Origin: Branchiostoma floridae
Lineage: Eukaryota > Chordata > Leptocardii > Amphioxiformes > Branchiostomatidae
Assembly (NCBI RefSeq): GCF_000003815.2
Contig: NC_049991.1
Coordinates: 2,424,877 to 2,488,876 of the forward strand
Reading direction: 5' to 3'
DNA: 64,000 bases
Below are positions 6,083-64,000 of the stretch, piece by piece (within the stretch, counting starts at the first letter, position 1; each line of letters opens with the position of its first letter). Under the pieces are notes generated by a model. The model ran no database searches. It was not told the DNA's origin and saw only the letters and a list, made by a program, of their open reading frames with translations. A program made the translations under genes and the position numbers.

Positions 6083-9000
6083 ATGACTTCTCGTCTGAGG
6101 TACCGTTGCAGTGGGTGTGGTTACACCACGCTTCAGAGGAAACGTATCGGTGACCACGTCGACGGCCACCGACGAGACGTGGAGAGACAGGCGGGCCAGC
6201 ACGACGCCGGCGCCGAGAGGGAACGCGTCGACTCTTCGGTGGACCAAGTCCGTATCTTAATACAGATAGAAGAAAAGGAACACAGACCGAGGAGGCCTCA
6301 ACAAGCCAGGCGCAGGCGGAGGTGTTGGACGGACGATTTGTTCGACATTGAGGTGAATGAACCCGAAGTTGGTCAACAGCAAAAAACGTCGTCTGACAAC
6401 TCTGACTGCCTGCCTGTTGAAAGATCAGTGCTCCCCCGAGGCAGTTACCTACCAGCGGATGAGAATAGATCAGGAAAAGGTCAACAGGCTCTGAAGATCG
6501 CACCGTTTAACCAATTATCTAATGATAGGGAGTGTGTGGGCCAAGAGGGGGTGAGAAAACAGGGTGCAGGGAAACAGCCTAACGAGTTACAAAAGGGCGA
6601 GGCAGTCCCGAGGGGCGCTCAAACGTTGACGGATCAAGTACAGCGGCAAGTCGGGAGAAAGGACACCTGTCGCCGCCGAGACATAGCTGTAAGTAACGCT
6701 CACCTATGTACGAACTCAGGCGGCGATACGACAACAGTCTACGACCGTAACAGTGCCGTAAGGTTGCCTCCCCTTCGGGGAATGGTAGGTTCCGATTCGC
6801 AGAAGCCGATAGAAGTTTCAGCTCTGCCGCTCGCCCCACTGCCCTGTGCAGAAAAGAGCTCGAATCCGCAACAGGTGATCCTTACCACCTCGCCACTCAT
6901 CAGAATGGAAGATGGGACAAGTTTGACATCCAAGACGATCCCATTTTCAGAGACTACGGACAGAGAACATTGTAGAAGAGCTGAGGACTGTTGCACAGAA
7001 AGGCAAGGTGACGGGACGCCCGTCGTCATGGACGTGTTTTCGCTCTCGGACCAGGCGACGACAAACAAGTCACAACCGGATAATTTTCCCGGGTTCTACG
7101 TGACTAATACCGCACGCCGTATGTCCCTATCTCACCTTAGCCTTGACGGTTTGGAGAGTTCGAACAAGGCCATTCCTCCCCAGAGGGAGATCCAGTCCGC
7201 CCCTCCAGCTCTCCAAACAAGAGGCGCAAGTCTTTCTCTCACCCCTTCTCCAGTCTGTAATTTGCCAGTTTCCAACGCAAGTGAGAACTCTGAAATCGCC
7301 ATTCAGTCTAAGTTTCTACACCAGGCAAACCACGAGGTTTCAAGTGACCTGCACGGAATGCAGAAATACGTAGAGACAAGGGGTGACTCACAAAACGGCC
7401 TTACTAATGACGGCTATCATCGTAAGAGAGATCTCCGTACAAAAGATCAAGGGTCACCAGAGAACACCGACGGGTTGGTCTACAGCAATCACTCGGCTAC
7501 AGACGCAAGGGTCCCCGTACAAGAGGGAGTCGATCTGACGGTAACGTCGTGGAAAACGCTGCCGTTTACGTCGTACGGGAATGTGACGTGTTCGGCCGCT
7601 AATGCACCTGGTATGTCAAAATTTCGGACTATAGCTCCCAAACCGTCTATTGATGAGATCCGCCCGTACTACGTAGGGGAGTCTAGAGTCTTTCGTTGTT
7701 TTCAGTGTCAGTTCATGTGCCTGGATAAGAAGCTTCTCCTTGTGCACATGCGGGAGGAACAGTGTTATGCGGGGCTTGTGCAACGAAAGAGCGCCATGGA
7801 AGCACTGAGGATGCTTAAGGAGGGACACACAGCGAAAGACACGTCGCAACTGCAAGCAAGCAACGAGACATGCCACGGTGGAACTCCAACAATCATGGCG
7901 GAGAAATCGGTGCCCTCGCCCGCCGCAAACATAGAGATATCATCGGGCGATGCCACTCCCGAGGAGGGCACAAACACAGTGTCGTATGAAGCACCTGTAC
8001 CAACGGACAACAACAACGTCAAAACGAGTGGCTCTGTGGGCAGCAGGGTGAAAGATCTTGAGCGTAAAAAGATGGACCCCTTAGACGATGTTATACCCAT
8101 AGGTACGACGTTTCCCAAGGAAGTCAAATTTGCGGCCTTCAAGCGACCAATCACGATCAGGAACCAACACCAGGCCGATAAATTGCGGGAAATTCTGCAA
8201 CACGAGCATCTGAAAGCCAGGTTCATGCACATGCTCAAGGTGAGGCTGAAACGAGCCCTAACGGTGGTGAACGAGAAAAGGTTGGGCACTACTACTACTA
8301 CTAAAGACACTGAAAGCAACGGAGGTCAGAAATCACAGACAGTATCTAAAAATGCGAATGTCAAGGATGCGAATGCCACGACAGGTTTACGTTGCAACAC
8401 CCATGCAAAGGCCAGCATTAGCCCAACCCTGTCGCCAATATTGGAGGTCAACATAAAGAAAGAACAAGCGGAAAAGTTTGCTTCTTGTTGCAGCGACGAA
8501 AAGAAGCAAGATAACCAGGGAGTGATACCGTTACCAGCGACACAAAGTAAAAGCATGCGAAGTGAAGAAACGTCTACTACTACTAAGCGGCAAACAAAAC
8601 GTATGTCACCGTCGAATGTGCCCACCGCTAGGCCGGCACATCAGAAAGGCGAGTCAATGGAAGAAGACGATTTAGTCGTCTATGTTGGACAAGACTGTGA
8701 AGTGCAACGTGGGAGAAGAGAACCACAAATCCCAGCCCCAGGCAAACTTCACACTGCAGTGGAAGCCTTAAGAAAAAAGGTTGAGGTAAAAGAAGACACA
8801 CCTTTCCCTACCGTTGATAACAAGACTCAGAGCGTCACACCATGTAATGCCTTGCAAGTCCCACAAACGCCGAGCCCACTGTCCCCATCGCCGCTACTCC
8901 AACTGACCAGGCTCACCCATGAAAACCCCTACCTTACCAGTAAGCCTCGAGACATCGTTAGAGTAACAGAAGTGGCTACTACAGAGGACTGTGTCCATCA

Positions 9001-9952
9001 AAAACAGTCTATTGCGATGCCACACACCGATAAAAACAGGGGAGCGGCAAGTCCAGACCTCCGACACCCTACCAAAAGGGTTGCCCACAACGACCCAGAC
9101 GTTATAGAGTGCACCCCGCCAAAATGCCAAGCCGTACAGCAGAAAAACATTTCATTCGAAGAATTCCAACAGCTCATGCGTCGGCATGGTGATGGTAGGA
9201 ACGTTGCCATGACAACGAACGAGATTTACCCGCCACAAACCCAGGGGATAGACCCAAGGCTACCTCTACGCCCATTGGTCAGTCCTGCATGTAACACTCA
9301 AAACTACAGTGCTGCTATTGGACAGAATCAGTCAAACACAGGACAATACCCATTCCAACAGCAGTTAGGGAGATATAACGACACAGTAGATCAACCTATG
9401 GCATACATGTACTGCAATGGCGCCACAGACCAAGACAGGCATGTGCAGCAACCAAGCAGAACCTGGCCACCTAGCAGAAGCCCTATGAACTCCACCTCAC
9501 CGTTAGACTTCCATACAGACAGCGGCAAGCACCCAGGCTACCGAGTCGGACCAATACCCCCACCACTATACAACGGAGCACCACGATTTAGTCAACCGTT
9601 TGCCACACACGACACCGGCGACAGATACATACAGACCAACAACCTTCAGGATACAGGGTTTAAAGAAGACGACATAAGTCCAGAACCGATGGACCTACGG
9701 GTGAGGAAACGTAGGCCGTCACCACCGCCTCTGATTCGGATCGAACCGTCATATCATCCGCAAGCAACCGTCACATCTTCGGCGGGACCTCCCATCACCC
9801 ACGACGGCTGGACCAGACGCGAGCAGAGGTTCGGGTTCAACGGGACACCGAAGTCACATATGAACCCTCGCGAGAGGTTGGACGTTATTCTAAACGAGAT
9901 CGAGACTACCGTTTGCAGTGACTATGCCGCGCAGATGACGTCACTATCATGA
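6083..9952 (+). CDS. Large zinc-finger protein, possible transcriptional corepressor-type regulator
   Basis: One uninterrupted 1289-codon frame, exceptional in this window. A classical C2H2 finger sits at the extreme N terminus (C9, C12, H25, H29). A second finger at about residues 539-561 has spacing C-X2-C-X12-H-X5-C. A basic, probably helical block lies at about 697-730 (core ADKLREILQ...LKARF), and a PMDLR motif at about 1202-1206 is followed by RVRKRRP. The rest is low-complexity, polar and proline-rich, probably disordered. The second finger, helical block, PxDLR motif and a short C-terminal helix recur in the same order in the minus-strand gene at 20875-22104, so the two are paralogues. 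PxDLS/R is the known CtBP-docking motif, so a nuclear repressor role is plausible but inferred. The start is uncertain: the ATG follows an in-frame TAG that could be a splice acceptor (ccctctag), so an upstream coding exon is possible. I do not recognise a named orthologue. Confidence 0.85.
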   Translation: MTSRLRYRCSGCGYTTLQRKRIGDHVDGHRRDVERQAGQHDAGAERERVDSSVDQVRILIQIEEKEHRPRRPQQARRRRRCWTDDLFDIEVNEPEVGQQQKTSSDNSDCLPVERSVLPRGSYLPADENRSGKGQQALKIAPFNQLSNDRECVGQEGVRKQGAGKQPNELQKGEAVPRGAQTLTDQVQRQVGRKDTCRRRDIAVSNAHLCTNSGGDTTTVYDRNSAVRLPPLRGMVGSDSQKPIEVSALPLAPLPCAEKSSNPQQVILTTSPLIRMEDGTSLTSKTIPFSETTDREHCRRAEDCCTERQGDGTPVVMDVFSLSDQATTNKSQPDNFPGFYVTNTARRMSLSHLSLDGLESSNKAIPPQREIQSAPPALQTRGASLSLTPSPVCNLPVSNASENSEIAIQSKFLHQANHEVSSDLHGMQKYVETRGDSQNGLTNDGYHRKRDLRTKDQGSPENTDGLVYSNHSATDARVPVQEGVDLTVTSWKTLPFTSYGNVTCSAANAPGMSKFRTIAPKPSIDEIRPYYVGESRVFRCFQCQFMCLDKKLLLVHMREEQCYAGLVQRKSAMEALRMLKEGHTAKDTSQLQASNETCHGGTPTIMAEKSVPSPAANIEISSGDATPEEGTNTVSYEAPVPTDNNNVKTSGSVGSRVKDLERKKMDPLDDVIPIGTTFPKEVKFAAFKRPITIRNQHQADKLREILQHEHLKARFMHMLKVRLKRALTVVNEKRLGTTTTTKDTESNGGQKSQTVSKNANVKDANATTGLRCNTHAKASISPTLSPILEVNIKKEQAEKFASCCSDEKKQDNQGVIPLPATQSKSMRSEETSTTTKRQTKRMSPSNVPTARPAHQKGESMEEDDLVVYVGQDCEVQRGRREPQIPAPGKLHTAVEALRKKVEVKEDTPFPTVDNKTQSVTPCNALQVPQTPSPLSPSPLLQLTRLTHENPYLTSKPRDIVRVTEVATTEDCVHQKQSIAMPHTDKNRGAASPDLRHPTKRVAHNDPDVIECTPPKCQAVQQKNISFEEFQQLMRRHGDGRNVAMTTNEIYPPQTQGIDPRLPLRPLVSPACNTQNYSAAIGQNQSNTGQYPFQQQLGRYNDTVDQPMAYMYCNGATDQDRHVQQPSRTWPPSRSPMNSTSPLDFHTDSGKHPGYRVGPIPPPLYNGAPRFSQPFATHDTGDRYIQTNNLQDTGFKEDDISPEPMDLRVRKRRPSPPPLIRIEPSYHPQATVTSSAGPPITHDGWTRREQRFGFNGTPKSHMNPRERLDVILNEIETTVCSDYAAQMTSLS

Positions 9953-27591: not shown

Positions 27592-27800
27592 TACCTTACC
27601 GTTCGTGAAGATGGGCTTCAAAGTAGGACTTCCGGAAAGTCGAGGCTGAGACGATTTCAAATGCACAACTTTTCAAGGCCTATGCCGTGTCTTGAAAAAT
27701 ACAAAATGACCAGCCCCTCCATGCCATATCCCCACCATGCTCTTAGGTTTGGCGCGTAATCTTAAGAAGAAGAAGAAGACAAACTAAAATTCTCTTCTAG
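27592..27800. other. Intron 3' part upstream of the RING exon
   Basis: Ends in the acceptor ttctcttctag at 27790-27800. An ATG at about 27610 (MGFKVGLPES) is followed quickly by a stop and does not supply the missing cysteines. Confidence 0.5.
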
Positions 27801-28038
27801 GTGCGTGATGGAAGACCCGCAGGAGTGTCCGTGTGGCCACGTCTTCTGTAAGGACTGCATCCAGCAGTGGCTGCGGTCGCACAGCACCTGCCCTAACTGT
27901 CGCAAACACTGCCACATGATCAAGCCTGTGTTACCCATGGTCCGTAACCTGATCAGCCACCTCACCATACGCTGTGAGAACCACCAGGCAGGCTGTGAGA
28001 AGAGGGTTCAGCTGGAGTACTATGACAACCATAAGCAG
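27801..28038 (+). CDS. RING / TRAF-type zinc-finger protein, exon with most of the RING domain
   Basis: Acceptor ttctcttctag precedes 27801 and donor CAG|GTAGGT follows 28038. The exon opens one base into a codon and ends at a codon boundary. It encodes CVMEDPQECPCGHVFCKDC, then CPNCR: RING ligands C-G-H, C-X2-C and C-X2-C of the cross-brace. A TRAF-type zinc-finger start follows (CENHQAGCEKRVQLEYYDNH). The first C-X2-C of the RING must lie in an upstream exon, which I could not find; the 4.76-kb transposon lies between here and any such exon. RING proteins of this type (NRDP1/RNF41, RNF151, PDZRN) are E3 ubiquitin ligases that recruit an E2. By architecture this is a member of that group; exact orthology is unresolved. 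Confidence 0.9.
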
Positions 28039-28258
28039 GTAGGTACTTATATAGAATACAACATGGTATGCTCCATATCACCAGAGGTATCAGCCATACT
28101 GTGGGTAGGGTCGCCCAACTACCATGAGAGGGCTGGGAAAAAGGTGGAGACACCGTGTAGCCTTTTGTTATGATCTCAAACTCAAATAAAAAACACACTT
28201 TCTATTGTAGAATGCGCATTCTATTCTCAAACAAAATTGTAAGAACAATTCCATTGTC

Positions 28259-30211: not shown

Positions 30212-30328
30212 CCTGTTCTGCCTTTGCTAAGCTCTACAAAAAAGTCTTTTTCCAAAACCAATTTTGAGACTTTGCTCTTAATCCATCAGTTTTTCTCTAA
30301 ATCTTTCCATTTTCTATCTTGCTCATAG

Positions 30329-32495
30329 AACAAGAACGGGAGAAGCGTTCTCTCCAACAGCAAAATGCAGAGTTACAAACCAGAGTGGACAACCTGAAGT
30401 TCCTGTGCTGGAGGAGCAGAAACTACCTGAAGAAGAACATGAACACCGAAACACCCGGAACCCTTCACAACCTGTGCGTCGATCTCGAAAACGCAACAGG
30501 ACTGGCTCCTGACAACACCGAGGGGCACAGAGATGCGGCCATTCCGCAAGCATCAAGGCAATTACACTGGTCAGAGTCCGACAGTTCAGATATTGAAAAT
30601 ATCCCACCTGAAACGTCGCCTGAAAGTAGCCTATTCCAACCCACAGCTGAAAGTTCCCCATATCAACCCTCACCGGCAAATAGCCCACCTCGCCCCATTG
30701 ACTTACTAGTACCTAATGAATACCAACCCTCACCGGCAAATAGTCTGCCACGTCCGATTGGCTCACTTAGCCTGTACCATATTGACTCACCGGATGAATA
30801 CCAACCCTCACCTGCAAATAGCCCACCTCGCCCCATTGACTCACCTGATCAATACCAACCCTCACCTGCAAATAGCCCACCTCACACTATTGACTCACCT
30901 AATGAATACCAACCCTCACCGGCAAATAGTCCGCCACGTCCGATTGGCTCACTTAGCCTGTACCATATTGACTCACCTGATGAATACCAACCCTCACCTG
31001 CAAATAGCCCATCACATCACATTCCCTCAGATGGAGAAGATGAAAATGAGGAAGGAGGACAAGGTAACACACACAGTGATGCTGGGATCGCTACTAACAC
31101 TGCTGAAACAAATGCAGAAGAGAGCAATGCGGACAGGGGAGAAGTACAGCCTCAAGAAAGAACCAGGGCGGAAGGAATGGAACATCGCACTCAGGGCTCC
31201 ACACAAGCCAACAGTAGAGGTACAGAAAGCGAACGCTTCTCTGAAGACGAAGAATCTAGAGGTACAGAAAGCGAAACCTTCTCTGAAGATGAAGAATCTA
31301 GAGGTACCGAAAGCGAAACCTTCTCTGAAGATGAAGAATCTAGAAGTAGAGAAAATGAAACTGTCTCTGAAGATGAAGAATCTACTATTGAATCAGACTC
31401 CTCTGAGGAGGCAGAATCGTCATCAGACCACTCTGAAAACCTACGGTACCTACTGGCGTCCGATTCCGATCTGACATATGATGAAGACTCTCCCTCAGAA
31501 TCGGAAACTGCTCCAACAGACCAGAACGTTAACAGACGGAGCACGAACGTACATGTAGAATCTGGATCGTCTCAGCAAAACAGCCAGCATGATCGGTCTG
31601 AAACAACAGGAGGCACTCAGAGGGCAACAACATCGACATCCAACTCTAGAAGGTTAAGTTATGGTGGAGGGCTTGGTCCGTATTCTTCCAGAAGTGGAAC
31701 ATCCAACTCTAGATCTGGAAGGTTAAGTTATGGTGGAGGGCTTTCATTGCCTCTGTATTCTCCCATAAGTGGAACATCCAACTCTAGATCTAAAAGGTTA
31801 AGACATGGTGGAGGGCTTGCAGTTGGTCTGGATTCTTCCAGAAGTGGAACAGTACAAAACAGCACTACCTCGACACAGCAAAACAGCCAGAATAGTTCCG
31901 AAAGAACAGCAGATCAGAGGGCACCAGCAGCATCGACCTCTGACACTAGAATGGTAAGACAACGTAGAGGGCTACATTATGAACCGGATTCTCCCAGAAG
32001 TGGAACAGTACAAAACAGCACTACTTCGACACAGCAAAACAGCCAGAATCGTTCCGAAACAGCATTAAATCAGAGGGCACCAATATCTACCTCTGTCACC
32101 AGAATGGTAAGATTTCGTAGAGGGCTACATTATGAACCGGATTCTCCCAGAAGTGGAACAGAACAAGACAGCACGGCTGGCTCAACACAGCAAAACAGCC
32201 AGAACCGTTCCGAAAGAACAGCAACAGATCAGAGGGCACCAGTATCGACATCTAACACCAGAATGTTAAGACGTCGTAGAGGGCTTGCTTTTGAGCCAGA
32301 TCCTCCCAATAATGACACAGTACAAAGCAGCACTACTTCGACACAGCAAAACAGCCAGAATCGTTCTAAAACAACAGTTGAGAGCGAACAGGTGAGATCT
32401 CGTCAGGAAAATGCCTGCCCAGCTTCTAACAGACTGGAGGACACTGTGCTTGTGGAAGACAGTGAGGAAGTGGGTGACAATGCAGATGGGCCTAG
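30329..32495 (+). CDS. RING / TRAF-type zinc-finger protein, long repeat-rich exon
   Basis: Acceptor gctcatag before 30329 and donor AG|GTGAGA after 32495; phases 1 in, 2 out. It begins with a coiled-coil stretch (EREKRSLQQQNAELQTRVD). Then come three repeat blocks: a proline-rich series around YQPSPANSPPRP (about 30655-31020, five or six units); four exact-length 42-bp units encoding RGTESETFSEDEES variants (31216-31383); and a 156-bp (52-residue) series with STTSTQQNSQNRSE and RRGLHYEPDSPRSGT (about 31640-32400, step 156 at 31876, 32032, 32188, 32344). The composition predicts a long disordered tail. Near the end DTVLVEDSEEVGD resembles a SUMO-interaction motif. Repeat number is likely to vary between alleles. 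Confidence 0.9.
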
Positions 32496-32667
32496 GTGAG
32501 AGATACATCAGTTTTGATTCAATACAATTTTGTCCAAAAGCAAATACTTGAATATTGCAGAGCTAGAACATCACTTGTGAATTTGCTTGATCATGAAAAG
32601 AACTGGAATTTGAACAATGTGTGTGAAGTGAACTCAATGATTAAGACTTATGTTATCTCTTGTGCAG

Positions 32668-39689: not shown

Positions 39690-39968
39690 TGTGCCCACTT
39701 ATCCTGGAGAGCAGTTTCTCTGGCAAGTATAAGATCCTGTGGAGGTCCCGTGTATGGGGAGAGTCACACCCCATGCACGTTAAAGAACCCCCACACGTGC
39801 AATGGTGCGGTGTGAGATGGAGCAAACCCTTCTGTCTGGAGTTGGTGATTCACTTCAAATCACCCGGACGGGAGACCTGGCGCATCCCCGTCTTGTAATT
39901 AGCCAGCAAAAGGGTATGTCAGCCCGTAAGGGGCGTTATAACCCCGCCGTGCGTAAACATGTGCGAAG
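39690..39968 (+). mobile_element. Partial SINE, body only
   Basis: ggaggtcccgtgtatgggga, cacgttaaagaacccccaca and gcgtaaacatgtgcgaa match, in order, the minus strand of the SINE at 26328-26826. The tRNA head is missing or unrecognisable, and the 3' tail is cut off exactly where the LINE fragment begins. Confidence 0.75.
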
Positions 39969-41370
39969 GCAAAAATCAATGTGACAATCCTAGACAGAGG
40001 TGGGCAGGTCGATATGCTTTTCTTGGACTTTGCCAAGGCGTTCGACTCGGTTCCACACTCCCGCCTGCTCCACAAGCTACAGATGTATGGGTTTAACGGT
40101 AAACTGCTGTCATGGTTTAACTCATACCTTACTGACCGAAAGCAGCGAGTGGTGGTTGAAGGCAGTCACTCAGAGTGGCTACCCGTTACTTCCGGTGTAC
40201 CTCAGGGCTCAATTCTAGGCCCAATGTTATTCTTACTGTACATTAATGACTTACCTAGCACTGCAAAGAACTCCATTGTAGCGTTGTTTGCTGACGATTC
40301 GAAATGCTATAGAGAGATTCGCAACCTAGATGACTGTCATAAACTACAGGCCGATATTTCGTCTATGTATGATTGGAGCCTTCGGTGGGGTATGTCATTC
40401 CACCCCTCGAAGTGCAAGGTGCTCCGTTTGACTCGCTCCAAGAGCCCAATAACATTTACATACCATATGTCTGACATTGCACTGTCCACAGTCAGTAGTA
40501 TGAATGACCTGGGAGTTCTTGCCCAGTCTGACCTGTTGTGGAACAGCCATATTGTGAACATTGTAAAGAAAGCCAATTCTATGATAGGATTTATCATACG
40601 CACAGTAGGCTTCGATTCCAGCCTGGAGGTGCGCAAGGCACTGTATGTTTCACTTGTTAGATCAGTACTTGAATATTGTTGCCCTGTGTGGTCTCCACTG
40701 TCACGTAATCTCATGTGTCTGTTGGAAGGCGTGCAGAGACGGGTGACTAAGTTCATTCTGCGTGCCAATGACAATGTAAATGCCGGTGATCTTGACTATA
40801 GAGATAGATTACTGTGTCTCAACATGTTACCTCTCTCATACAGGAGAGAGATCGCCGATATCATGCTATTTGTTAAGTCCCTAGCCAACATGAATGATCT
40901 GGACCTGTCTAACTATGTATCATTTTCTGCCAGACCAACAAGGAGTAGTCGGTCGTTCATGCTGATGCCATGTCGCTGTAAAACATCTACATTTGCTATG
41001 TCATACGTACCACGGTTAGTTACCGAATGGAACAAGCTTGATGTCACAGTTCGCAGCATAGGAGCTGTGTCGTCGCACCAGTCCGACCTATTGTCTTTCA
41101 AACAGCTACTTGTGAAATCTACTGTTGATAGATTCAGAAGCCACTTTGTAACCGATAACCTCTGTACCTGGTCTACTGCATGTAAGTGCGCCTCCTGCCA
41201 GGACTTAAGGGCTCGTTAGTCTGATCGATTATTAATGTCGTTTTGTATCAATCTTATCTGCGTTATCTATTGTATTTTTATGTCGGGGCGAGGGCCAGCA
41301 AAGGTGTCACCACCTGTTCCCCCGCCCCTTCCACTTGTGTGGGGAATTTTAATAAACAAATAAACAAAAA
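39969..41370 (+). mobile_element. 5'-truncated non-LTR retrotransposon (LINE)
   Basis: Contains the ORF2 fragment at 39981-41219 and a short 3' UTR ending in an (AATAAAC)n-like tail (41352-41372). The 5' truncation inside the reverse transcriptase is typical of incomplete LINE insertion. It abuts a SINE fragment at its 5' edge. Confidence 0.88.
39981..41219 (+). CDS. LINE reverse transcriptase, N-terminally truncated
   Basis: The 412-codon frame has RT motif A FLDFAKAFDSV, motif B GVPQGSILGPMLFLLYINDL and catalytic motif C FADD (the FADD variant of F/YxDD). Thumb/connection sequence follows, ending with YVPRLVTEWNKLD, the conserved ORF2 C-terminal 'NxWNxLP'-type segment. The endonuclease, RT motifs 0-2 and ORF1 are missing, so it is not autonomous. 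The remaining frame is intact, suggesting a fairly recent insertion. It belongs to the Jockey/CR1-like branch of non-LTR elements by general resemblance; the exact clade is not resolved. Confidence 0.9.
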   Translation: MTILDRGGQVDMLFLDFAKAFDSVPHSRLLHKLQMYGFNGKLLSWFNSYLTDRKQRVVVEGSHSEWLPVTSGVPQGSILGPMLFLLYINDLPSTAKNSIVALFADDSKCYREIRNLDDCHKLQADISSMYDWSLRWGMSFHPSKCKVLRLTRSKSPITFTYHMSDIALSTVSSMNDLGVLAQSDLLWNSHIVNIVKKANSMIGFIIRTVGFDSSLEVRKALYVSLVRSVLEYCCPVWSPLSRNLMCLLEGVQRRVTKFILRANDNVNAGDLDYRDRLLCLNMLPLSYRREIADIMLFVKSLANMNDLDLSNYVSFSARPTRSSRSFMLMPCRCKTSTFAMSYVPRLVTEWNKLDVTVRSIGAVSSHQSDLLSFKQLLVKSTVDRFRSHFVTDNLCTWSTACKCASCQDLRAR

Positions 41371-49879: not shown

Positions 49880-50660
49880 CTTGGCCAACCAGAGCCATTC
49901 CCCACACCTAACCTTTGCACATATAGCTGCAAGCGTTACTGTGTATTTTTTATACCCTGAATCTGATTCTATAGTCTGATTTAGATAATATGTACTTGCC
50001 TCGACTTAGGTTGATACATGTATGACAGTATGAACATCTTGTGGCTTATCGACTGTCTAAGCGATGGTAAGAAGGAAGGCTGCTTACCTGAGCTAACCCT
50101 TGCACATATAGCTGTAAGCATTACTGTGTATTTTTTATACCCTGAATCTGATCCTATAGTCTGATTTAGATGATATGTACTAGCCTCACCTTAGGTTGAT
50201 AAATGCAAGACAGTATGAACATCTTGTGGCTTATCGACTGTCTAGGCGATGGTAAGAAGGAAGGCTGCTTACCTGAGCTAACCTTTGCACATCTAGCCGC
50301 AAGTATTACTGTGTATTTTCTATGCCCTGAATCTAATTCTATAGTCTGATTTAGATGGTATGTACTAGCCTCACCTTAGGTTGATACATGTATGACAGTA
50401 TGAACATCTTGTGGCTTATCAACTGTCTGGACGATGGTAAGAAGGAAGGCTGCTTACCTGAGCTAACCGTTGCAAATCTAGCTGCACGCATTACTGTGTA
50501 TTTTTTAGGCCTTGAATTGGCTTGTATAATCTGATTTAGATGGTATGTACATGCCTCGCCTTAGGTTGATACATGTATGACAGTATGAACATCTTGTGGC
50601 TTATCAACTGTCTAGAGGATGGTAAGAAGGAAGGCTGCATACCTGAGCTTCCCAGTAGAT
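49880..50660. repeat. Tandem array, about 175-185-bp unit, overlapping an NCX exon end
   Basis: The string tgcttacctgagct recurs at 50091, 50266 and 50451, and as tgcatacctgagct at 50636 (steps 175, 185, 185). On the minus strand each unit carries AGCTCAG|GTAAGC; the last unit is the actual end and donor of the exon at 50643-50765 (AGCTCAG|GTATGC). Confidence 0.92.
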
Positions 50661-55490: not shown

Positions 55491-55517
55491 AGGGTTTATT
55501 ACCAACATAGTCCTTAC

Positions 55518-55676
55518 CAACATAGTCCCTTCCATTCACAGCCCTCATGTCCTTAGTCTTCCACTTGACCGAGATGACCCCATCTGACCCCTTGGTCCTC
55601 TGTACGGGGACGCTGGCAATCCCCGCAGACTCCTTGAAGATGAAACTGGGCTTGGTGAAGTCCAGGACACCAGGAT
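55518..55676 (-). CDS. SLC8A (NCX): Sodium/calcium exchanger, second Calx-beta domain (first half)
   Basis: Acceptor tgtaattag before 55676, donor TTG|GTAAGG after 55518; phase 1 on both sides. Encodes DPGVLDFTKPSFIFKESAGI, then VPVQRTKGSDGVISVKWKT and AVNGRDYVG, the beta strands and 'GxDY' turn of a Calx-beta domain. A second donor (TTG|GTAATA) lies 15 bases downstream and would add GKDYV in frame. The first 45 bases of this exon with its acceptor are repeated four more times in the adjoining intron. Confidence 0.93.
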
Positions 55677-56225
55677 CTAATTACAACCAAATAAGGCAAT
55701 ATGTTAATATCCTGCTAATGATTGGTTGAGGAGTCACATGCCTTGAAGATGAAACTGGGCTTGGAGAAGTCCAGGACACCAGGATCTAATTACAACCAAA
55801 TAAGGCAATGTGTTAATATCCTGCTACTGATTGGTTGAGGAGTCACATGCCTTGAAGATGAAACTGGGCTTGGTGAAGTCCAGGACACCAGGATCTAATT
55901 ACAACCAAATAAGGCAATATGTTAATATCCTGCTACTGATTGGTTGAGGAGTCACATGCCTTGAAGATGAAACTGGGCTTGGAGAAGTCCAGGACACCAG
56001 GATCTAATTACAACCAAATAAGGCAATATGTTAATATCCTGCTACTTATGCAACAATCAATGTCACTGATTGGTTGAGGAGCCACATGCCTTGAAGATGA
56101 CACTGGGCTTGGAGAAGTCCATGACACCAGGATCTAATTACAACCAAATAAGGCAATATGTTAATGTCCTGCTACTTATGCAACATCCAATGTCACTGAT
56201 TGGTTGAGGCGTCACATGATTTTCA
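55632..56225. repeat. Tandem array, 109-bp unit (one of 130), containing an NCX exon start
   Basis: caggatctaattac recurs at 55671, 55780, 55889, 55998 and 56128. On the minus strand each unit has taattag|ATCCTGGTG..., the acceptor and first 45 bases of the exon at 55518-55676, followed by 64 bases of intron. Only the first copy continues into a full exon. Confidence 0.95.
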
Positions 56226-56661
56226 GAATGACTGGCCAATCAGAATACAGCCATTTCTTGTCAACAGTGCTAGTTCAGCATGTAATCTGTCCTTGGTGCT
56301 GAATGGGCAATCATTCTGTTGTTTTTGTTAACCGGGTGAAAAAATATATGTATCTATAGTACTGATTAGTATGGTAGCATAATGTGCTTGTTACTAATTC
56401 AGTAACTTGATTTAATTACCAATAGCTCTGTCCTTGGTGCTGATTGGCTAGCCATTTGCCAGTAAAGCTCTGATTGGCTCCTAGACCAAGGTTCCTCACA
56501 GCCCAAAAGTCCTGTATCTGCAACTCTGATTGGCCAATAGTTTCTGTTTTCATCAGTCTGCTGAATGGCTAGTTTTTCTATCGATGGTTCTCATTGGTCG
56601 ACTAGGTTGCTTCCTATGGTTCTGATTGGTCATCTCCTAATACAAGTAGAATTGCTCTTAC

Positions 56662-56891: not shown

Positions 56892-57826
56892 CTGTGACAT
56901 ATAACAGACAAAAGCTTCCATCAATATTTCATCATTGCCATTCAAAGTCTTGAACTTACTACCTGTAGGAAGGTACATTGTCAGATAATTCTCTACCTAC
57001 AGCCATATTACAACTATAGACCTTTTTCAACCATAGTTAGTAATAACATGATATTGCTCAGAGACCATTCCCACAGTTTTCTGTTAATCGTTCCAGACCC
57101 CTTTTACCATGGATTCACAGATTGAGACGGACACATGTGAAACTTCAATAATGTGTATTCAATGACCCTTCATACCTAGCCTAGCTAGTGCACATGCACG
57201 AGAGTATGATAGCAATGGCAGGTGATCTAACACCTAACGCTAGTTGACCTTTATCCGTTGGGTAACCTGTATTCGTTGTTTTAAAAGCAGATATTTAGTT
57301 CTATCATGCCGATGAAATGTGAGTTCAAACTGCTCTATTTTGAAAATATTACAACTTGAAACAACCGTCCGTCGACTCGATATCCCTAAATGTGCTGTTT
57401 TGAAAAACTGTTACAACGGATATAGGTCACCTCATGGATAAAGGTAAAGTAGCATTACCTATCCCTAAATCCCTTTCAGTCAAAATTGTTTATAAAGATC
57501 AGACTGACAAAAGGGCAAATGCCTTCAGCTGCACTCTTATTGGCTAAACTGTTTTTGATTGACAACCTAATTGATATTGAAAGATACTCAGCGTAGAATT
57601 CAGCATAGAAGGAAAGAACCCTCGTGGTTGACCTCGAAAGAGATGGACGGACAACACAAGGGAAGACATACACCTCCTCAACCTACACAGTGTCAACCCA
57701 AATGATAGAGGATGCTGGAGAGCTGCCATCTAGCCCCCTCTTCTACGTGCAAGCACGTCTAACCCCCACAGGATGGGGAACAACAGACGATAAACAGGAG
57801 AGTGAGTGAGTGACTGACTGACTGAC
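56892..57826. other. NCX intron with one MITE
   Basis: Contains the MITE at 57235-57458; the rest is unremarkable apart from a GAGT/GACT run at about 57800-57824 next to the exon donor. Confidence 0.5.
57235..57458. mobile_element. MITE, AACGTTAGTTCACC-ended, copy 5, in NCX intron
   Basis: taacgctagttgacctttat (left) and ggataaaggtaaagtagcatta (right). Confidence 0.85.
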
Positions 57827-58014
57827 CTGAAAGGCACCCTGGTGTTTGTCCTGCCCGAGCGCAGCACAGACACCTCCACCGTGCCCTGGCTTTCCATCAC
57901 GGCGCAGGACGACGCGGAAAACTCCACGACGGAAAACGTCCCGCCCTGGGACAGGTCCGACGCTGAGTCGATAATCAGCGGCACCTCGTCCTTATTCTTG
58001 GCCTTGTCATAAAC
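57827..58014 (-). CDS. SLC8A (NCX): Sodium/calcium exchanger, first Calx-beta domain (first half)
   Basis: Acceptor cactttctag before 58014, donor CAG|GTCAGT after 57827; phase 0 in, 2 out. Encodes VYDKAKNKDEVPLIID, then FSVVEFSASSCAVMESQGTV and SVLRSGRTNTRVPF. This is the start of CBD1, joining in frame to YETIDGTA of the next exon. Confidence 0.93.
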
Positions 58015-62846: not shown

Positions 62847-63124
62847 TTCCTTGAGGCTATTGTTCACGTTCACGGAAACTTTCCGCCCTCCCACCAGCCA
62901 TCGCGTAGCGTTCACGCGGTACCAGCTCCTGTCGTGCTTCTCATTCTCCTGAATCTTCAGGGCCGCGTGCTTCTCATTCTCCTGAATCTTCAGGGCCGCC
63001 AGTTTGGCCGCCTCCTCGGGAGACAGCTTGCCTCCGGAGTACTTGCTGATCTCCTTGACGAACTCGGACACGGACTGCTTGTTCACATGGCCGGGCTTCA
63101 GTTCAGCAGCCATGCCTGCATACT
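62847..63124 (-). CDS. SLC8A (NCX): Sodium/calcium exchanger, cytosolic-loop exon before CBD1
   Basis: Donor GAA|GTGAGT after 62847 (phase 0). Encodes GMAAELKPGHVNKQSVSEFV, then AALKIQENEKH twice in a row and WYRVNATRWLVGGRKV. 'YRVNATR' matches the loop segment just before CBD1 in NCX proteins. The 5' edge is uncertain: acceptors cccag|AG and cccagag|TATG are two bases apart (first exon base 63124 or 63122), and tatgcag|GCATGG a little further on is also possible. Upstream exons (N-terminal membrane block, XIP region) lie outside the window. Confidence 0.85.
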
Positions 63125-63440
63125 CTGGGATGGAGAGCAATCATTGGTCAATATTCTGGGAAGGACAGCAATCATTGGTCAATACTCTGGGAAGGAGAGC
63201 AATCATTGGTCAATACTCTGGGAAGGACAGCAATCATTGGTCAATACTCTGGGAAGGAGAGCAATCATTGGTCAATACTCTGGGAAGGAGAGCAATCATT
63301 GGTCACTACAGAAACCCAAATACTCTGGGAAGGAGAGCAATGGTTGGTTACTACAGAAACCCAAATACTCTGGGAAGGAGAGCAATGGTTGGCTACTACA
63401 GAAACCTGAATACACTTGGAAGGAAAGCAATCATTGGTCA
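63112..63440. repeat. Tandem array, 31-bp core unit, about 9 copies, abutting an NCX exon
   Basis: tactctgggaaggagagcaa with tcattggtcaa repeats in steps of 31 from 63121 to about 63300. It then continues with an added cactacagaaacccaaa spacer (about 48-bp step). On the minus strand every unit reads ttgctctccttcccag|agta, a pyrimidine tract plus AG like the exon's own acceptor. Confidence 0.93.
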
Positions 63441-64000
63441 CAGGTGGATGGTTTCAATGTGAAAGTGTCATCTTATAGAGGTAAATGTTGTAAATATTGC
63501 TGTGCAGTTCCAGAGCAAGCTGCTAGGGGCACAAAACCAAAACCACTTGATTGAAAAAAACAAGTTCTATTGCAGTACCAAGGTCAGACATAAGGGGATC
63601 TAAATTGACCATGAAGTTTGTCTTCCCAAACCCAAAACCTATCCACATGTCAAAGACCACCACTATCCATCCAGAGGTTGTAAGGTCATTATGACCACAA
63701 ATATCCGGAAGCACACAAACACAGACATGCATACCAAAAACAATACCTACATTTTCATGAAGGTAATACATGTCATCAAGGAGGTCATTGAGCTTATCAG
63801 ACATGATCTTGTGACAAAAATCACCAAATTATCATGATATATTGAAGCCATATAGTACATAACCAAGAAATTGCATTTTCAGCACCATGGACAGTACTAA
63901 TTTCCATCAAAAGAATTATACAAATTTATATAAGCCAATTAACAACGCCAAAATGAGCCACAACCAAATTTTCTTACTTCCGAGAAGCCTACTGGAACTA
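63441..64000. other. Presumed NCX intron, nothing recognised
   Basis: The minus-strand open frame at 63523-63804 has no NCX similarity or other domain that I can see. Confidence 0.4.

Follow-up and report, generated by a model that had tools for sequence, protein, structure and literature searches.

In the sodium/calcium exchanger (NCX, SLC8) gene of Branchiostoma floridae, the start of one exon, here called exon D, is repeated together with its 3′ splice site in five tandem copies, and we propose that the array is probably a neutral, self-homogenising minisatellite of the mirage type, tolerated as exon definition picks the exon-proximal site. Mirages are tandem duplications of exon-intron boundaries described in amphioxus for Adh3 and for the globins BflGb6 and BflGb9 (PMC3087553), and troponin C and PGBD5 are also listed among the genes that carry them (PMC3902484). 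The analysis covers 64,000 nucleotides of contig NC_049991.1 (hereafter the window), to whose first letter all positions refer.

Based on frame and homology, the NCX gene lies on the minus strand of the window, and homology places its 5′ portion outside, past the edge. The peptide joined from exons A to G contains two Calx-beta domains and, after them, transmembrane segments of the exchanger. Its best match in the PDB is sodium/calcium exchanger 1 (NCX1, E 3.2e-60), in an alignment that spans CBD1, CBD2 and a transmembrane part, and among the 17 distinct PDB sequences found at E <= 0.001, 16 are NCX or CALX and one is integrin beta-4. The Pfam Calx-beta family was found in two stretches (169 bits, E 4.8e-50), and Na_Ca_ex reached 23.2 bits, short of the 24.9 cut-off, for a query that left out exons G2 and H. 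Exon borders (Table 1) were set by frame, homology and splice consensus, not by transcripts. Intron length ranges from 726 to 4832 nt among the eight measured. Exon D has phase 1 introns at both ends, of 985 nt upstream (the C-D intron, which holds the array) and 1687 nt downstream (D-E), and its start aligns with the CBD1-CBD2 linker of NCX1, 501-HAGIFT-506 (PMC9820601), and the residues after it.

Table 1. Exons of the NCX gene and tandem duplications at their boundaries, in window positions
Feature	Position	Strand	Basis or remark
NCX exon A	63124-62847	minus	frame, homology, splice consensus
NCX exon B	58014-57827	minus	frame, homology, splice consensus
NCX exon C, second part of CBD1, upstream neighbour of exon D	56891-56662	minus	frame, homology, splice consensus
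NCX exon D, CBD1-CBD2 linker region and start of CBD2, 159 nt	55676-55518	minus	NCX1 alignment
NCX exon E, rest of CBD2, downstream neighbour of exon D	53830-53651	minus	frame, homology, splice consensus
NCX exon F	52924-52746	minus	frame, homology, splice consensus
NCX exon G	51761-51552	minus	frame, homology, splice consensus
NCX exon G2	50765-50643	minus	frame, homology, splice consensus
NCX exon H	from 46541	minus	frame, homology, splice consensus
Exon D array, unit 1, 109 bp	55632-55740	minus	real acceptor, exon edge 55676; 45 exonic and 64 intronic bases
Exon D array, unit 2, 109 bp	55741-55849	minus	decoy acceptor, exon edge 55785
Exon D array, unit 3, 109 bp	55850-55958	minus	decoy acceptor, exon edge 55894
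Exon D array, unit 4, 130 bp	55959-56088	minus	decoy acceptor, exon edge 56003
Exon D array, unit 5, 130 bp	56089-56218	minus	decoy acceptor, exon edge 56133; most diverged copy
Perfect 15-bp tandem duplication across exon D donor	55499-55528	minus	
Exon A acceptor array, 31- and 45-bp units	63120-63441	minus	real edge 63124 and seven decoys at 63155-63369
Exon G2 donor array, 185 bp x 4	49908-50649	minus	real donor 50643; decoys 50458, 50273, 50088

Within the gene, exon A also holds a 33-bp perfect coding duplication (62933-62999, minus strand), which gives ALKIQENEKHA twice in part directly before the NCX1-aligned segment, and the exon B donor, CAG/GTCAGT (57800-57830, minus strand; the slash marks the splice site here and below), opens a CAGT-CACT tetranucleotide run and lies within this short simple repeat. 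Elsewhere in the window, the plus strand carries an open frame of 420 aa that is LINE reverse transcriptase-like by eye (39957-41219), one of 732 aa with several coding tandem repeats (30301-32499), upstream of which lies a frame that looks RING-like by eye (27766-28173), and one of 1289 aa (6083-9952).

The exon D array (55632-56218, minus strand) consists of five units joined head to tail, 109 bp long in three cases and 130 bp in two. Both TRF and find_repeats detect it. TRF gives two overlapping entries, 55632-56046 with period 109 (score 802, 3.8 copies, 98% matches) and 55935-56218 with period 130, and a score so far above the threshold of 50 is beyond a chance match. Every unit comprises the first 45 bases of exon D and adjoining intron, which amounts to 85 bases (21 extra) in the two exon-distal units and to 64 in the other three. 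The acceptor reads CCTTATTTGGTTGTAATTAG/ATC in all five units, and a branch-point-like TTAAC motif with its A at -28 is present in each. Over -20..+3 the five acceptors are letter-identical; each decoy departs from the real acceptor at 1-3 bases over -43..+12, and over -43..+45 each of the five units is distinct. Because of the identity over -20..+3, local acceptor strength cannot tell the five acceptors apart, and any acceptor model confined to these 23 bases rates them alike. An earlier note on this DNA had described a five-fold duplication of exon start and acceptor in an NCX intron, with extra acceptors essentially identical to the real one, and both points are borne out, with exon edges exactly at the positions it gave (Table 1). 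Its unit of 109 bp with 45 coding and 64 intronic bases holds for the coding part and for three units, but the other two are 130 bp long with 85 intronic bases; likewise, its span of 55518..56225 contains the array, but 55518 is the 3′ end of exon D and not an array edge. Nor is a single acceptor intrinsically much stronger than the others, one of the findings that the note had named as speaking against its reading.

The differences among copies bear on the history of the array. Units 1-4 differ among themselves at 1-3 of 109 shared positions and unit 5 is the outlier, with 5-6 differences to each other copy over the same length; at the edges of this cluster of five copies, the outer unit has drifted and the exon-side unit 1 has not. 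Any two copies differ at 0-3 of the 45 exonic bases and at 1-3 of the 64 intronic bases that all copies share, which are small counts. Selection on the coding parts of the decoys is unsupported, as the three exonic positions that vary among copies all change the residue. The real copy and decoy copy 3 carry an A (Thr) where copies 2, 4 and 5 carry a T (Ser). A variant common to the functional exon start and one decoy suggests that the real start of exon D is itself involved in exchange among the copies. Such exchange would explain intact decoy acceptors without selection and, if it does occur, would make the array a source of Thr/Ser variation at the beginning of CBD2. In the rest of the intron (56219-56656), a search for decayed older copies gave a resemblance to the unit of 22 against a shuffle mean of 22.6, with 174 of 300 shuffles scoring at least as high, and intron gain through old, decayed copies is unsupported, the intron remainder being no closer to the unit than shuffles are. 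The same remainder has other internal repeats, with a best 24-mer self match of 21/24 that none of 200 shuffles reached. The array-bearing intron (55677-56656, minus strand) further contains 14 CCAAT/ATTGG pentamers, 8 of them as CCAATCAG on the gene strand or its complement. Their density is 18 per kb in the intron outside the array versus 2.4 per kb across the window, a cluster-size test was marginal (7 versus a 95% random maximum of 6), and we take these CCAAT boxes to resemble NF-Y sites.

The reading frame sets the real acceptor apart from the decoys. In agreement with the earlier note, the frame through exon D stays open only from the exon-proximal acceptor, and read-through from each of the four decoys ends at a stop after 23 codons. 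The note had all decoys end in NQ and a stop; this is so for three of the four, and the one at 55785 ends in NH and a stop. The exon would measure 159 nt from the real acceptor versus 268, 377, 486 and 616 nt from the decoys. Splice sites were scored with textbook vertebrate position frequencies, and the weight is put on three points that do not depend on this matrix: acceptor identity over -20..+3 for exon D, GTAAGC versus GTATGC in U1 pairing for G2 and, for exon A, a single T to A substitution within the real acceptor's pyrimidine tract. By this textbook vertebrate matrix the exon D acceptor is weak for the gene (5.13, the second lowest of nine, only that of exon B being lower at 4.85). A scan of 71 AG sites in its intron found 5 that outscore it, three of which are AAG/GC at unit junctions. 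At the other end of exon D, the duplicated donors are both in frame and 15 nt apart, GTAAGG after 55518 and GTAATA after 55503; the downstream one would insert five residues, KDYVG, into CBD2, and the NCX1-aligned peptide took the upstream one.

The exon D array is not the single oddity for which the earlier note took it: it fits a published class, and there are further boundary duplications in the same gene, which has three arrays (exon D and exon A acceptors, G2 donor) and a small fourth at the exon D donor. Units at exon A each have a pyrimidine tract and CCCAG/AGTAT (AATAT in one), their decoy acceptors reading TTGCTCTCCTTCCCAG or TTGCTGTCCTTCCCAG, and a diverged eighth decoy lies at 63414. 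All seven unit decoys outscore the real exon A acceptor, which has an A within its pyrimidine tract, and the diverged one falls below it (textbook vertebrate matrix). Each of the seven meets an in-frame stop, five of them directly after the first full codon. At G2, the real donor CAG/GTATGC scores 8.35 versus 11.33 for the three downstream decoys CAG/GTAAGC by the same textbook vertebrate matrix, which also gives 11.12 for two further donor-like AAG/GTGAGG sites in the array (50375 and 50190); GTAAGC has the better U1 pairing, and reading on to the decoy donors leads to a stop. Frame and homology point to the exon-proximal site at all three arrays. This pattern is to be expected, as arrays grown into exons would mostly harm the protein, and does not establish a mechanism. 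Enrichment of arrays at splice sites, assessed for the NCX gene with 27 array intervals hand-merged from 39 TRF rows, is not significant: 4 of 17 splice sites lie in tandem arrays against 2.1-2.2 expected (P 0.17 by all circular shifts, 0.15 by random placement), and among the 11 arrays located within the gene, 4 include a splice site against 1.7 expected (P 0.057). The exon H acceptor is about 1 kb away from the nearest array.

Taken together, these observations suggest a neutral history. A tandem duplication may have happened to span an intron-exon boundary, after which the array would have grown by unequal exchange or slippage and been homogenised through exchange among its copies, the functional one included, so that decoy acceptors would be kept perfect by mutual copying and not by selection. 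Splicing most likely ignores the decoys, and use of a decoy with read-through would lead to a stop and presumably to decay of the message. Since exon D lies between long introns, the acceptor that partners the 55518 donor over the length of the exon should be favoured, and the real site, which gives the shortest exon, would win on a rule of cross-exon proximity. For human genes, introns over 250 nt are treated as subject to exon definition, with the nearest partner across the exon preferred (Carranza et al., PMC9225289), and all eight measured NCX introns belong to this class. In human minigenes described there, whose introns were 365 nt long and whose two strong donors were identical, splicing used the exon-shortening donor only. 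For published mirages, normal splicing reportedly appears undisturbed, going by Adh3 data and by RT-PCR on globins (PMC3087553), and we see no sign in the sequence that decoys modulate inclusion of this calcium-sensor exon, one of the two options given in the earlier note. The same report states that some mirage copies could serve as cryptic sites, terms the origin of mirages unclear and describes length differences between haplotypes.

Identical acceptors, stops at all four decoys, an anatomy like that of published mirages, the drifted unit 5 and the A (Thr) shared with decoy copy 3 count in favour of the neutral account. Against it, upstream acceptors win across an intron (Reed and Maniatis, as cited in PMC9225289), a preference that would favour the exon D decoys, and for 3′ sites under exon definition this upstream preference is described as significantly reduced, not plainly reversed (PMC9225289, human). 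Weakened sites caused exon skipping in larger minigene exons according to the same source (human), and the exon D acceptor is weak; five intron AG sites score above it. The stronger 5′ site was dominant in 86% of events there (PMC9225289, human), and all three G2 decoys, like all seven exon A unit decoys, outscore the real sites by the textbook matrix. The undrifted exon-side unit and the lack of significant array enrichment at NCX splice sites likewise count against the neutral account.

Decoys used at some rate would give the array a function, with stop-bearing message destroyed and array length tuning NCX output, by a route in which the upstream acceptors, made first in transcription, capture the upstream donor. 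Acceptors that are the same over -20..+3 and share a branch-point-like motif are consistent with this idea, as are the stops after 23 codons at four of four exon D decoys, the stops after one full codon at five of seven exon A unit decoys and the success of intron-proximal acceptors in classical experiments (summarised in PMC9225289). We nevertheless consider it unlikely, given that published mirages reportedly leave splicing undisturbed (PMC3087553, PMC3902484), that chance often places a stop shortly after an intronic junction, to be copied thereafter with the unit, and that the array has no sign of conservation. Quite unlikely, in our estimate, is a heritable and possibly somatic dial, in which 14 decoys (four at the exon D acceptor, seven at the exon A acceptor and three at the G2 donor), equal to or, by the textbook matrix, stronger than the three real sites, would let length-variable arrays shift the share of NCX messages that carry a stop or a repeated linker.

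The decoys might also be included as small in-frame exons, each included copy lengthening the linker of the calcium sensor by 16 residues. From all four exon D decoys a 48-nt piece is open up to a GT (CAT/GTGACT in three, CAT/GTGGCT in one), keeps the phase and is stop-free even with all four pieces included, and by the textbook vertebrate matrix its donor scores 4.88 in three of the four and 2.32 in the fourth, compared with 3.68 for the real exon F donor. Moreover, CBD2 of NCX1, NCX3 and CALX is described as varied through alternative splicing (PMC9820601). We regard such exons as highly improbable: the introns between them would be just 61 nt long (82 nt for the outermost), the donors are without G at -1, a second copy of the linker and CBD2 segment would probably upset the fold, phase-keeping is a one-in-three coincidence that would be copied with the unit, and the exonic variants among copies all change residues. 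GC donors at the unit junctions (AAG/GCATGT, 2.84 by the same textbook matrix) would instead end 44-nt pieces that break the frame. It is very unlikely that the repeat number in the window is an assembly artefact, absent from the genome. Assemblies do fail at tandem arrays, and the copy number of BflGb6 and PGBD5 differed between haplotypes or assemblies (PMC3087553, PMC3902484), but the copies here differ coherently: all five units are distinct and a 21-bp block is present in the outer two, which is not what a single read placed twice would give. In addition, four separate boundary repeats lie within one gene, and the PGBD5 repeats are reported as confirmed by new sequence data (PMC3902484).

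The NCX arrays, with decoys equal to or stronger than the real site, offer a natural experiment on exon-centred proximity versus splice-site strength. A gene with several arrays also bears on the proposal that mirage arrays seed new introns, as put forward in PMC3087553. Mirages are thinly reported in the literature searched, and among the matches listed we found no earlier report on amphioxus NCX.

Minisatellites with a splice site occur outside amphioxus as well: in the human interferon-induced 6-16 gene the unit carries a splice donor, so that several donors are offered. Both that repeat and the exon D array are minisatellites with a splice site, 6-16 having a donor unit in a vertebrate gene and NCX exon D an acceptor unit. 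In placing equal splice sites in series before one partner, the NCX arrays resemble the constructs of Reed and Maniatis and of Carranza et al. as described in PMC9225289, although those were engineered with two sites and the arrays are natural with up to eight. Among mirages, PGBD5 shares with NCX the presence of tandem repeats on splice sites of one gene; its repeats, of 60 and 108 bp, differ in copy number between assemblies, are described as imperfect, unlike those of NCX exon D, and were made into an exon by one gene prediction, a feature of PGBD5 and not of NCX (PMC3902484). Adh3 mirages are, like the exon D array, minisatellites across an exon-intron boundary with cryptic splice signals, but their units are 10-72 bp long as against 109/130 bp, and the length instability, somatic too, is one reported for Adh3 (Canestro et al. 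2002, as cited in PMC3087553). The globin BflGb6 is similar in that its mirage comprises the 3′ end of an intron and the 5′ part of an exon, several of its units having splice signals. An outer unit of BflGb6 stayed outside homogenisation, and the drifted unit 5 gives the NCX array a similar copy history at one edge. The BflGb6 mirage has units of 150-160 bp in 6 and 3 copies in two haplotypes and was followed by RT-PCR (PMC3087553), compared with 109/130 bp in five copies in one sequence for NCX exon D, and the exon-side NCX unit has not drifted, contrary to the prediction from BflGb6. All five exon D units contain exonic and adjoining intronic sequence with an acceptor, and their length of 109/130 bp stands beside published values of 10-72, 60, 108, 150-160 and 157 bp. 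By this anatomy, the exon D array looks like a further member of the published mirage class, not a new kind.
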